From Deltaproteobacteria bacterium (GTDB taxonomy: Bacteria; Myxococcota_A; Polyangia; JAAYKL01), in the NCBI GenBank assembly GCA_028713995.1, contig JAQTNF010000009.1:1-64000 (forward strand): DNA of 64,000 nt, read 5' to 3'. The translations under genes were made by a program, and so were the position numbers. The notes under the pieces were generated by a model. That model ran no database searches. It had not been told where the DNA came from and worked only from the letters and a program-made list of their open reading frames with translations. This document shows positions 56,309-63,616 of this stretch, piece by piece (within the stretch, counting starts at the first letter, position 1; each line of letters begins with the position of its first letter).

Positions 56309-57931
<1,623 letters not shown>

Positions 57932-57949
57932 ATGACGAAAGGATACGTC

Positions 57950-59164
57950 ATGCGAACCGCCGTGTTGATGGTTGCGCTGGGCATGTGCCTGCTCGCCTGC
58001 CCGCAGCCCGCCCGGGCCGGGGACAAAGCCGGGGACAAGGCCTCGGCGCAGAAGCACTTCCAGACCGGGCTCGCCCTCATGAAGGCGGAGGACTTCGCCG
58101 GCGCGTCCGCGGAGTTCGAGACGTCGGTCTCGCTCTTCCCCACCAAGACGGGCCTGTTCAATCTGGCCAACTGCTACAAGGCGCTCCACCGCTACAGCAA
58201 GGCCCTGGACGCGCTCGAGAAGCTCGACGAGAAGTTCGGGGAAGACCTCGATGACGAGATGAAGGGATCGGTCAAGCGCCAGGAGAACGAGATCCGGGCC
58301 CTCATCGCGGACGTGGAGATCGCGGTGAAGCAGACCGGCGCCGTCATCAAGGTCGACGGCCGCGAGGTGGGCGCAAGCCCGCTCGCGGAGGCTGTTGTCG
58401 TGGGGCCGGGCGAGCACGCCATCGAAGTGTCCCTCGACGGTTACGAAGCGGTCTCGCGCAAGATCACCCTCGTTTCCGGGGCCAAGGCCAAGGAGTCTTT
58501 CGACCTCGAACCGTCGCGCGTGCAGCTCACCGTCACGGCCAAGCCCGACGGCGCCGTGGTCACGGTCGACGGCAAGAAACAGGGTGAGACCCCGCTCAAG
58601 GAACCGTTGCGGCTCGCGCCGGGCAAGCACACGGTGCGGATCTCCAGGGACGGCTACGCGGACGCGGAGCGCGAGGTGACGCTCGAGCCCAAGGAGAACA
58701 TGGCCCTCGACCTCACCCTCGACGAGGCGACACAGGCGGCGGCGGTCGTCCCGGCGGCCGGGCCCGAGAACAAGCCCGCGGCCGGGCCCGCGACACCCTC
58801 GCCCCCGAAGGCCGAGCAGGAATCCGGCAACAAGCCGTCGATCCTGTTCTGGACCGGTCTCGGACTGACCGCGGCGACCGGGATCGCGGCCGGGACGTTC
58901 TGGATCCTGGCCGACACGAGCTACGACTCCTTCACCAAGTCCCGCGAGGACTACCGCGACGGAAAGATCGACGCGGACAACTCCAAGCTCAAGAACGCCA
59001 AGGAGTTCACGGATCTGTACGGCAAGATCGCGCTCGGCACGGGCATCGCGGCCGGCGCGCTGGCGCTCGGGACCGCGATTGTGCTCGTGCTCGACATGAC
59101 CGGAGAAGAGTCCGGAAACGCCCAGGCCTCAGTCGTGCCCGGCGGCGTCGTGGTGAGGTTCTAG
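57950..59164 (+). CDS. TPR/PEGA-domain exported membrane protein
   Basis: 404 residues. Signal or lipoprotein-type N-terminus MRTAVLMVALGMCLLACPQP. A TPR-like helical region (25-110; AQKHFQTGLALMKAEDFAGA) precedes two PEGA repeats (about 115-175 and 185-250; GAVIKVDGREVGASPL and GAVVTVDGKKQGETPL). The C-terminal part has two hydrophobic helices (SILFWTGLGLTAATGIAAGT and IALGTGIAAGALALGTAIVL). ATG 57950 is preferred to 57932 because AAAGGA is 6 nt upstream. PEGA domains bind envelope components. Adjacent to the kinase, a likely partner or substrate. Confidence 0.88.
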   Translation: MRTAVLMVALGMCLLACPQPARAGDKAGDKASAQKHFQTGLALMKAEDFAGASAEFETSVSLFPTKTGLFNLANCYKALHRYSKALDALEKLDEKFGEDLDDEMKGSVKRQENEIRALIADVEIAVKQTGAVIKVDGREVGASPLAEAVVVGPGEHAIEVSLDGYEAVSRKITLVSGAKAKESFDLEPSRVQLTVTAKPDGAVVTVDGKKQGETPLKEPLRLAPGKHTVRISRDGYADAEREVTLEPKENMALDLTLDEATQAAAVVPAAGPENKPAAGPATPSPPKAEQESGNKPSILFWTGLGLTAATGIAAGTFWILADTSYDSFTKSREDYRDGKIDADNSKLKNAKEFTDLYGKIALGTGIAAGALALGTAIVLVLDMTGEESGNAQASVVPGGVVVRF

Positions 59165-59166
59165 CC

Positions 59167-60657
59167 ATGAAACAATATCTATCCATCGGTCTTCAAGCGT
59201 CTTGGGCCGCATGCGCGGCGACGGCTCTGCTTGTCGCCGGGTGCTACGATCTGAGCCTCGGCTCGGTGAGGGACACCGGATCGGACAACGACACTGGCTC
59301 TGACAGTGACTCCGACGGCGACTCCGATTCCGACAGCGATTCCGACTCCGACTCCGACAGCGACTCCGACTCCGACAGCGACTCGGACTCCGACTCCGAC
59401 TCGGATTCCGGCTCCGACACGGATTCCGGCTCCGACACGGAAACGGGCACTGCGCCGTGGGTCGGCGCGCCGTGCACGCAGTCGAACCCGGATCCCTGCC
59501 CGGAACTGACCGGCGTGACCGATTCATTCTGCTTCATGTGGTCCGGGGCTTCCGGCGGCATCTGCACGAAGAAATGCACGCCCGCCACGGACAGCAATCC
59601 AGTGGACGGATGCGGCATCGACGGGGTCGTGTGCATGGATATCTCGGGATTGACGTCCGACACCGCGGACGACGCGTCAGGCTACGGGCTCTGTGTGGAG
59701 AAGTGCGTGCCCTCGACGTCCGGCAGCGAGTGCCGGGCCGGTTACGTCAAGTGCGATCCTCAATCGTGGTCGTTCGAGGCCCATTTCGCAACCTGCCTGC
59801 TTACCAAATGCCAAACAAACGCGGATTGCGGGCTCGGAGGAAAGGACTGCACGACGGACTCCACGGTGTGCGACACGCCGAACGGCGAGGCATGCGAGGA
59901 CCAGGGCGACGGCACGAAGCTCTGTGTGAGCTACGGCACGTGCGACACGCTCACCGGCCGCTGCTCCTGGGCCGGCAACCCCGACGCCGAGATCGGGGAT
60001 CCGTGCGAGTTCAACTCGCAGTGCGGCGACAACATGATCTGCTTCGAGGAGTCCAAGGATGCGGAGAGCAAGGCGCTCCTGCGCAACGGCATGTGCACGA
60101 AGACGGGCTGCGGGGCCGCGAGCCAGACGGCTCCCAACGGCTCCGGCTCGACCGAGCAGGCGATCATCGATCGCTACGGGTGCACCTCGTCGGGGGTCTG
60201 CAACAGGGCCTTCTACGGAGGCGGCCTGTGCTTCAGGAGCTGCCTCCCGAACAATCCCACCTCCTGCCGCCAGCCGGCGTGGGGCGGCGGCACGGTGCTC
60301 GACCAGAACGGCGATTATGATTGTTACGACAAGAGCGGGTGGACATACGGAATCAACGCGGACGGAGGATCGGGCGCGGGAAAGAAAATAAAGGTTATCG
60401 ACGGTCCGTATTGCTTCTGGGTCTCGTCCCAGAATTATGGGAAGTGCCAGGTCTACGACGGGACGCTCGAGCTCGCGGACGACTGCACCGCCTCGACCGC
60501 ATCGCGTTGCTTCACGTGCGACGAGTACTATGGACAGAACAGCGGCGGGACGAGCTGGGGCATGCAGATGATGTGCCGCAACCCGGTCACCGGCGCGGCC
60601 CAGAGCGACGGCTACTGTCTCGACAGCACGACCTCCGGCCAGACGGGATCGTGGTGA
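59167..60657 (+). CDS. Cys-rich lipoprotein with Asp/Ser-repeat linker (paralog 1)
   Basis: 496 residues. Lipobox LVAGC (Cys26). A long Asp-Ser/Asp-Thr linker (about 36-95) precedes a Cys-rich ectodomain with more than thirty Cys. Distinctive segments include NPVDGCGIDGVVCMDIS, DPQSWSFEAHF, CGLGGKDCTTDS, EDQGDGTKLCVSYG and SGTSWGMQMMCRNPVTG, nearly all shared with the next gene. No enzymatic motif. Probably a surface-exposed lipoprotein on a flexible stalk. It follows the PEGA protein by 2 bp and so is probably in the kinase operon. Confidence 0.85.
   Translation: MKQYLSIGLQASWAACAATALLVAGCYDLSLGSVRDTGSDNDTGSDSDSDGDSDSDSDSDSDSDSDSDSDSDSDSDSDSDSGSDTDSGSDTETGTAPWVGAPCTQSNPDPCPELTGVTDSFCFMWSGASGGICTKKCTPATDSNPVDGCGIDGVVCMDISGLTSDTADDASGYGLCVEKCVPSTSGSECRAGYVKCDPQSWSFEAHFATCLLTKCQTNADCGLGGKDCTTDSTVCDTPNGEACEDQGDGTKLCVSYGTCDTLTGRCSWAGNPDAEIGDPCEFNSQCGDNMICFEESKDAESKALLRNGMCTKTGCGAASQTAPNGSGSTEQAIIDRYGCTSSGVCNRAFYGGGLCFRSCLPNNPTSCRQPAWGGGTVLDQNGDYDCYDKSGWTYGINADGGSGAGKKIKVIDGPYCFWVSSQNYGKCQVYDGTLELADDCTASTASRCFTCDEYYGQNSGGTSWGMQMMCRNPVTGAAQSDGYCLDSTTSGQTGSW
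59298..59445 (+). repeat. Asp-Ser codon repeats
   Basis: Runs of GACTCC/GATTCC/GACAGC hexamers, about 25 copies with wobble changes, encode the DS linker of the lipoprotein. Such linkers act as flexible acidic stalks and are prone to slippage. Confidence 0.85.
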
Positions 60658-60713
60658 CACGGGCTCGAGCACCGGCGAGATGACCCAAACGATTGCAAAA
60701 AGGAGGGGCTGAC

Positions 60714-62330
60714 ATGAAATCAAAGAAAATCTTCAATGGTGGAGTGCTGTGGGCCGCGGGGTTGGCGGCGACCTTCATGTCCGGGTGTTACATCACGCAC
60801 GACGGCTCGGACGACGACACCACAACAGATACCAATGGTGGAGGCTGCCAGACCGACGAATGGGCGTGCAGCAGCGGCTTGTGCATCGACGCGGCTTCCC
60901 GTTGCAACGGGATCGTCGACTGTCCCACCGGCGACGACGAGACAGGCTGCGACACGGGCGGCGGCGACACGGACTCCGATTCCGACTCCGATACGGATAC
61001 GGACGGCGATGCGGATACGGATGGCGATACGGATACCGATTCCGATTCCGACACGGATACGGACACAACGACGGACACAACGACGGACACAACGACAGAC
61101 ACGAGCGCCGGCGATTGGGTGGGCTCGCCGTGCGACGTCCCGGACGGGGGAGCGGATCCCTGCCCCGACCTCACCGGCGTGGCCGAGTCGGCGTGCTTCT
61201 CTTGGTCCGGGGCTCCGGGCGGATTCTGCTCGATGCAGTGCACGCCCGCCACGAGCGACAACCCGGTGGACGGGTGCGGCATGACCGGCGTCGTCTGCAC
61301 GGATATCTCGCCGCTGACCGGCAGCACCGACGACGACGCGACCGGCTTCGACATCTGCGTCGAAAAATGCGTGCCGTCCACCACGGGCGCAGAGTGCAAG
61401 GCCTCGTACATCCGGTGCGATCCGCAATCCTGGTCGTTCGAGGCCATGTTCAGCACGTGCCTCCTTTCCAAGTGCCAGGGTGACGCGGATTGCGGGCTCG
61501 GAGGGAAGGACTGCACGACGGGCTCCGCAGTGTGCGACACCCCGAACGGCGAGACCTGCGAGGATCAGGGCGACGGCACGAAGCAGTGCGTCTCCTATGG
61601 GGTCTGCGACGTCGTCACCGGCCGCTGCTCCTGGACCGGCGACCCCAATGCCAAGATCGGGGATCCTTGCGAGTTCAACTCGGAGTGCGGCGACAACATG
61701 ATCTGCCTCGACGAGATGGTGGACACGAACGGCAAGACGGTTCCCGCGAACGGGGTGTGCCTGAAGCAGGGCTGCGCCGTGGCCAACCAGTCGTCCCCAA
61801 ACAACTCCCACTCCACGGAGCAGGCGATCATTGATCGCTATGACTGCACCGCGTTCGGCGAGTGCCACATCGGGTGGATGGGCGGCGGCTTCTGCCTGCG
61901 CCGCTGCCTGCCGGACGGCAGCAACCCCTCGTTCACCTGTCGCCAGGCGGCGTGGGACACCGAAACGGTCCTCGATGGCGACGGCGATTACGACTGTTAC
62001 GATCAGAGCAGCTTTGCTTACAGCATCCTGGCGGGCGGGGGCCAGTACCCGGTCGTGGCGGGTCCGTTCTGCCAGTGGATCTCAGAGGGCGCGATGGCGA
62101 AATGCGGCCTTTACGGCGGCCTGGAGATCGCAAGCGATTGCACGGGCTCGACGGCTCCGACCTGCCGGACCTGCGACGAGTCCTTCGGCCGCAAGAACAG
62201 CGGCACGAGCTGGGGCATGGACATGATCTGCCGCGACCCGGTCACGGGTCAGCCGGCGGCCGACGGCTACTGTCTCGACGGCACGACCTCCGGACCGACC
62301 GCGGTCTGGGATGCGGACTCGGGCATCTAG
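60714..62330 (+). CDS. Cys-rich lipoprotein with LDL-receptor class A module (paralog 2)
   Basis: 538 residues from MKSKKIFNGGVLWAAGLAAT, with SD AAAAGGAGG. Lipobox MSGC (Cys25). Residues 45-79 form an LDLa-like module: six Cys spaced C-x6-C-x4-C-x6-C-x5-C-x8-C, with the acidic end DCPTGDDETGC resembling the calcium site. A DT/DS-rich linker (81-130) follows, then the same Cys-rich ectodomain as the upstream gene, well over half identical by eye. The upstream paralog has no LDLa module. Probable tandem duplication with later domain gain or loss. Confidence 0.87.
   Translation: MKSKKIFNGGVLWAAGLAATFMSGCYITHDGSDDDTTTDTNGGGCQTDEWACSSGLCIDAASRCNGIVDCPTGDDETGCDTGGGDTDSDSDSDTDTDGDADTDGDTDTDSDSDTDTDTTTDTTTDTTTDTSAGDWVGSPCDVPDGGADPCPDLTGVAESACFSWSGAPGGFCSMQCTPATSDNPVDGCGMTGVVCTDISPLTGSTDDDATGFDICVEKCVPSTTGAECKASYIRCDPQSWSFEAMFSTCLLSKCQGDADCGLGGKDCTTGSAVCDTPNGETCEDQGDGTKQCVSYGVCDVVTGRCSWTGDPNAKIGDPCEFNSECGDNMICLDEMVDTNGKTVPANGVCLKQGCAVANQSSPNNSHSTEQAIIDRYDCTAFGECHIGWMGGGFCLRRCLPDGSNPSFTCRQAAWDTETVLDGDGDYDCYDQSSFAYSILAGGGQYPVVAGPFCQWISEGAMAKCGLYGGLEIASDCTGSTAPTCRTCDESFGRKNSGTSWGMDMICRDPVTGQPAADGYCLDGTTSGPTAVWDADSGI
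60965..61104 (+). repeat. Asp-Thr/Asp-Ser codon repeats
   Basis: GATACG/GATTCC/GACACG hexamers followed by three GACACAACGACG units encode the acidic linker (DTDSDSDSD...DTTTDTTT). Distinct from the linker of the paralog, so it has evolved rapidly. Confidence 0.85.
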
Positions 62331-62350: not shown

Positions 62351-63616
62351 GTGACCACATTCACGAGCGCCCTGCCCTGCCTGACCGCCGACGTGCCGCC
62401 GGTCGGCGCGGCCATCCGCCGTCACCTCGCCGACTTCGAGGTCGACGAGATCCCGGCCTATCTGCCGAGCGGGGACGGAGATCACGTCTACTTCCGCATC
62501 GAGAAGAGCGGGCTCGCCACGTCGCGGGCCGTGCGCGAGATCGCCCGGGCGCTCGGCGCGGCGCCGCGCGACGTCGGGTTCGCGGGACAGAAGGACGCGG
62601 GCGGGGTCACACGGCAGACGCTCAGCCTGGAGCACGTCGATCCGGATCGGGTGCGCGCGCTCGACCTGCCCCGGATCCGGGTGCTCGAGGTGAGCCGCCA
62701 CCGCAACAAGCTTCGCATGGGGCATCTCAAGGGAAACCGGTTCAGGCTCCTGCTTCGCGAGGTCGCTCCGGATCGCGTCGGCGATATCCGGACCGTCCTC
62801 GCCCTGCTCGGCTCGCGGGGCGCGCCCAACTACTTCGGCGATCAGCGCTTCGGCCTGCGAGGCGACACGGGAGAGACGGGCCGAGCCCTGCTCGCGGGCG
62901 ACTTCGGCGCCGCGGCAGAGATCGTGGCCGGTCGGCCCGGCGATGCGGATTCGGGCCCGGTTCTCGAGGCACGAACGCTCTTCGCCCGGGGCGCGTTCGA
63001 AGAGGCGGCCCGGGCATGGCCGCGCGGGTTCGACGAAGCGCGAAGGGTTTGTCTGGCCATGCTCCGGTTCCGGGGCGACCCCAGACGGGCGATGATGTCC
63101 CTCGACAGGCGCGCGCTCGGTTTCTACGTGTCCGCGTTCCAGTCGCAGGTCTTCAACGCCGTGGTGGCGGCACGCGTGCGTGGGCTCGACCGCGTGATGC
63201 AAGGCGATCTGGCCTGGAAGCACGACTCGGGCGCGGTGTTCCGCGTGGACGATCCGGCCGCGGAGCAGCAGAGGACCGATGCCTTCGAGATCTCGCCGAC
63301 CGGTCCGCTTTTTGGGCCGCGCATGACCGAGCCCCGGGATGAGCCCGCGCGCATGGAAGACGATGCGCTCGCTTCCGCCGGGGTGGATCGTCGCGCGTTC
63401 GAGGCCAAGGGACCGCTCTCGTGCCCCGGGGGCCGGCGCCCCTTGCGCTTCCGTCCCGAGGGTGCCGAGGTCGAGCCCGGCTCGGACGAGCACGGTCCGT
63501 TCCTGGAGCTGCGTTTCACCTTGTCCCCGGGGTGCTACGCCACCGCGATCCTGCGCGAGATCGGCAAGGACCGGCTCCAGGAGGACGATCCCATCGCGAC
63601 CCGCAGCCGTCCGTAG
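62351..63616 (+). CDS. truD: tRNA pseudouridine(13) synthase TruD
   Basis: 421 residues from a GTG (MTTFTSALPCL) with AGAGGA upstream. Isomerises U13 of tRNA-Glu. The catalytic Asp lies in GFAGQKDAGGVTRQTLSLEH; NYFGDQRFG and the insertion domain are typical. Start set by the N-terminal VDEIPAYLPSGDGDHVYFRI motif (FxVxExP...G.H). Convergent with the partial receiver gene, 8 bp away. Confidence 0.95.
   Translation: MTTFTSALPCLTADVPPVGAAIRRHLADFEVDEIPAYLPSGDGDHVYFRIEKSGLATSRAVREIARALGAAPRDVGFAGQKDAGGVTRQTLSLEHVDPDRVRALDLPRIRVLEVSRHRNKLRMGHLKGNRFRLLLREVAPDRVGDIRTVLALLGSRGAPNYFGDQRFGLRGDTGETGRALLAGDFGAAAEIVAGRPGDADSGPVLEARTLFARGAFEEAARAWPRGFDEARRVCLAMLRFRGDPRRAMMSLDRRALGFYVSAFQSQVFNAVVAARVRGLDRVMQGDLAWKHDSGAVFRVDDPAAEQQRTDAFEISPTGPLFGPRMTEPRDEPARMEDDALASAGVDRRAFEAKGPLSCPGGRRPLRFRPEGAEVEPGSDEHGPFLELRFTLSPGCYATAILREIGKDRLQEDDPIATRSRP

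Follow-up and report, generated by a model that had tools for sequence, protein, structure and literature searches.

A genuine LDL-receptor class A module in an apparently exchangeable collar position of a stalked Myxococcota lipoprotein

The locus and the architecture of the lipoprotein

The window, by which we mean the whole 64,000-nucleotide stretch of contig JAQTNF010000009.1 that was analysed, contains between 56309 and 63616 a run of five genes on the forward strand. A Ser/Thr protein kinase gene (56309–57931; PF00069, E 3.5e-47) is followed by a gene for a TPR and PEGA-domain protein (57932–59164; PF08308, E 1e-28), which ends 2 bases ahead of the first of two lipoprotein genes whose products share a head domain (59167–60657 and 60714–62330). 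Because these four genes (56309–62330) lie on a common strand with short gaps they may constitute one operon. The tRNA pseudouridine synthase gene truD is situated downstream (62351–63616; PF01142, E 1.7e-96).

The second lipoprotein gene specifies a protein of 538 amino acids. Its signal peptide (60714–60788) ends in an MSG-C lipobox, recognized by inspection and by a lipobox scan, with 24 residues ahead of the lipidated Cys25. A linker of 19 residues (60789–60845) leads to an LDL-receptor class A (LDLa) module (60846–60950), which begins 20 residues past the lipobox cysteine. There follows a low-complexity stalk rich in Asp and Ser/Thr (60951–61112, to about residue 133), and then a Cys-rich head (61113–62330). 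The description of this protein in the initial annotation as a stalked lipoprotein is thus borne out on both counts. Its position in the sequence puts the LDLa module next to the membrane, at the base of the stalk, and the head at the far end.

The head is defined by its paralogs in this genome and by one relative within the family. It produced no match to PDB or Pfam, and a search of the whole protein against Pfam returned LDLa as the sole match. Alignment of the head against the genome collection matched a single Myxococcota contig, a kinship that places the organism in the Myxococcota, and an AlphaFold2 model of the head built with three sequences reached a pLDDT of only 31.3.

The stalk is recognizable by its composition and by matches to a DNA pattern; at the protein level it gave only weak matches, to the SD repeats of the Sdr/Clf adhesins. 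Stalk DNA occurs twice in the window (59301–59440 and 60966–61100). Over the entire genome a five-repeat version of the pattern gave 803 overlapping matches, compared with none for the reversed control, and we estimate, by extrapolation from the first 101 matches listed, that there are about 190 stalk loci. The pattern is present in 12 of 13 listed family relatives, ten of which have hundreds to thousands of matches (maximum 5139), and is rare or missing in most other families of the class.

The LDLa module and its calcium site

Residues 45–79 constitute a genuine member of the LDLa family. PF00057 matches this region with 30.7 bits (E 3.5e-7) over the full profile (positions 3–37 of 37), above the curated cut-off of 24.1 bits. 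The cysteines are spaced C-x6-C-x4-C-x6-C-x5-C-x8-C, which is the canonical six-Cys arrangement and agrees with the exact LDLa spacing reported earlier for these residues; the span first assigned to the module (60843–60952) was correctly placed, and was 2–3 bases too wide at each end. An Ile directly after Cys3 and a Trp two residues ahead of Cys2 are both typical of the family.

Against a profile built from 15 other bacterial LDLa modules the lipoprotein scored 42.2 bits. When the module was shuffled with its cysteines held in place (n = 20,000) none of the shuffles reached this value, the best scoring 29.7 on the same profile, and the best of approximately 20,000 full shuffles scored 16.0. 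A phmmer search matched the module to many solved LDLa structures, including those of VLDLR, LDLR, LRP2 and complement factor I. AlphaFold2 modelling of the module alone gave a pLDDT of 41.7.

The acidic, calcium-site-like end noted in the initial annotation is present in the form of D69 immediately before Cys5 and the Asp-Glu pair D75/E76; the first ligand position, directly after Cys4, is occupied by an asparagine (N65). The Asp-Glu pair is invariant in 89 of 89 bacterial LDLa modules, all of which also carry Asp or Asn after Cys4. Most have Asp there, and the Asn form is restricted to 15 of the 89. Judged by its residues, the calcium site of this module appears near-canonical rather than perfect.

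LDLa modules are further characterized by disulfides joining Cys1-3, 2-5 and 4-6. Among the inner modules of LDLa arrays in related genomes, where the modules within an array cannot be counted as independent, Cys1 and Cys3 are both present in 36 and both missing in 20, the single discordant case being a first module mislabelled by our script. Since the two residues come and go together, these counts support, for that pair only, the known Cys1-Cys3 disulfide in bacterial LDLa modules. Four-Cys LDLa-like modules without Cys1 and Cys3 are found in relatives (L014, L016–L018, L020, L022, L030, L032, L034 and L035); such modules are mostly C-terminal on short lipoproteins.

Occupants of the slot between lipid anchor and stalk

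The neighbouring lipoprotein (59167–60657) has a lipobox, an SD stalk and the same head. It aligns with the LDLa-bearing protein over the head only (62% identity over 410 residues) and has no Pfam match, which agrees with the earlier remark that the paralog next door lacks the module. In a sequence search over the head, identity amounted to 64% for this neighbour, 61% for a paralog on contig 89 and 45% for the family relative; a separate comparison of the heads gave 0.644, 0.618 and 0.478, respectively. LDLa was absent from all three, and from the more distant head relatives that were examined; in the neighbour and the contig 89 paralog the slot between lipobox and stalk is empty. It had been left open whether the module was gained or lost after duplication. 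As every close relative of the head is without LDLa, a gain by gene 60714–62330 would be the simplest reading.

The genome (a draft of 218 contigs, 97% complete with 0.88% contamination) carries nine LDLa ORFs, distributed over eight contigs. In all nine a single module starts 12–20 residues past the lipobox cysteine, with an Asp-Ser/Thr stalk behind it. Inspection of the heads, on the other hand, shows at least five kinds, which have no Pfam domain in common. Residues of the calcium site, and not the cysteines alone, are kept in every copy. A tree built from 39 six-Cys modules, which at 35 columns is too short to be firm, separates the nine from the other modules by one branch (92/86) and pairs the module described here with that of lipoprotein L009 (96/92). 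This grouping suggests that LDLa probably spread within this genome.

L009 is informative in a second respect, in that its head has paralogs (L082 and L083) in which a different Cys-rich mini-module, CxPG..xxCxC...GxxxC..DG.xWxxCxC, takes the place of LDLa between lipobox and stalk. This CxPG mini-module, for which neither Pfam nor NCBIfam gave a matching model, was found 10 times in the genome with a single-sequence search and 13 times with a profile; among those that were read, most lie 11–20 residues past the lipobox cysteine and ahead of a stalk. It was detected in 108 of 284 Myxococcota genomes, and in most of the readable loci of relatives it follows closely behind the lipobox. Many Myxococcota lipoproteins have it 6–20 residues past the lipobox (L089–L099, L102, L103, L106, L107, L110, L111, L113 and L117). 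Since related lipoproteins have LDLa, the CxPG module or nothing in this slot, the membrane-proximal position accepts different small disulfide modules.

LDLa modules were identified in 61 of 379 sampled Myxococcota genomes, whereas the 14 control genomes had none. The initial annotation regarded LDLa as mainly an animal domain; for Myxococcota, at least, this overstated its rarity in bacteria. In other genomes the module is often placed elsewhere, either in tandem arrays or at C-terminal ends. In the lipoproteins L010, L012, L013 and L015 of relatives about 7–14 modules stand in tandem, and some of these proteins have Asp-Ser/Thr stretches inside the chain or at its C-terminal end. No match came from two scans of viral sequences with LDLa queries, nor from tblastn searches against phage and plasmid sequences.

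Possible role of the module and comparison with known systems

Because LDLa shares its slot in nine proteins and the CxPG module replaces it in homologs, the module looks like one exchangeable membrane-proximal collar rather than a tip-mounted receptor for prey or host. We would suggest that it reached the lipoprotein by domain shuffling inside the genome and fills a collar slot just behind the lipid anchor, ahead of a stalk with an unrelated head. Following export it would presumably form three disulfides and take up one calcium ion as it folds. From its position, and from that only, we infer a biochemical role as a compact element for membrane-proximal interaction or positioning, which might dock to a shared envelope partner or fix the base of the stalk; outward-facing work would fall to the head at the far stalk end. 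Counting against it are the Asn in place of the first calcium-site Asp, the low pLDDT of the models of module and head, the small number of columns in the module tree, and the frequent placement of LDLa elsewhere in other genomes. We consider the chances of this combined reading to be about even. A broader version is improbable in our estimation: it would make the position 6–20 residues past the anchor a general collar slot of Myxococcota lipoproteins, with exchangeable disulfide mini-modules (LDLa, CxPG...WxxCxC and perhaps others) that the cell would read as a docking label or address when it displays proteins at its surface, LDLa having been co-opted for the purpose.

Animal LDLa modules bind proteins in a calcium-dependent manner, and the module might act here as a surface receptor for prey, host or sibling proteins, as was originally proposed for host or prey. 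The arrays of about 7–14 modules in relatives do resemble receptor arrays, and there has been speculation on a host-ligand role of the LDLR-like genes in Endozoicomonas (PMC9743535). The proposal is nevertheless weakened by the position of the module, which in this protein sits 20 residues from the lipidated cysteine and in nine of nine genome copies is single, membrane-proximal and below a long stalk, and by the unrelated mini-module that takes this slot in other lipoproteins. A receptor is less likely for this architecture, since it is the head and not LDLa that occupies the distal end of the stalk; we consider it unlikely.

The module might alternatively be a passive shuffled spacer, a swappable disulfide knot that folds and has no specific partner, selected only for stability near the membrane. 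Its replacement by a different Cys-rich module, or by nothing as in the neighbour and the contig 89 paralog, is what such a spacer would permit. The retention in all nine copies of the calcium-site residues, and not just the cysteines, suggests however that selection acts on more than a knot, and we regard the spacer as rather doubtful. Eukaryotic contamination or an assembly artefact might be suspected in a draft of this many contigs, but is extremely improbable: the module is in frame within a bacterial lipoprotein gene flanked by its tandem paralog and truD, LDLa is found on eight contigs, the genome shows little contamination, and 61 of the 379 Myxococcota genomes sampled possess the module.

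A receptor module best known from animals is used repeatedly on bacterial lipoproteins, at a site which argues against the obvious receptor interpretation. Because LDLa and the CxPG module swap in one slot of homologous proteins, the function of bacterial LDLa becomes a testable question, namely whether the two collars give a protein the same localisation or the same partner. The CxPG mini-module itself is widespread in the phylum and stands outside the Pfam and NCBIfam models.

Like the LDLa modules of LDLR, VLDLR and LRP2, that of the lipoprotein has the family Cys spacing, the hydrophobic Phe/Trp and Ile positions and an acidic calcium-site end; it differs in being single, in lying beside a lipid anchor and in having Asn for the first calcium-site Asp. 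Members of the endocytic LDL-receptor family have a transmembrane segment and add EGF and YWTD propeller modules to an array of LDLa modules. The lipoprotein does not belong to that family: Pfam found no EGF or beta-propeller modules alongside its one LDLa match, and it is held by a lipobox lipid anchor.

Our search for LDLa in myxobacteria found nothing in the open-access literature, a weak result as most subscription journals fell outside its range. LDLR-like genes in bacteria are already known from Endozoicomonas clade A1, where they show a close relationship to coral host genes and were interpreted by the authors as host-adaptation genes (PMC9743535). The two cases are alike in the occurrence of an LDL-receptor-like sequence in a bacterium. 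They differ in that the Endozoicomonas genes are host-like, whereas LDLa as described here is widespread in Myxococcota and, in this genome, is carried on stalked lipoproteins.

The long Ser-Asp repeat stalk recalls the staphylococcal Sdr/Clf adhesins, with a match that is limited to low-complexity repeats and falls far below the cut-offs. In those adhesins the stalk lies at the C-terminal, wall-anchored end of the protein. Here, by contrast, it comes after a lipid anchor at the N terminus and bears unrelated heads.
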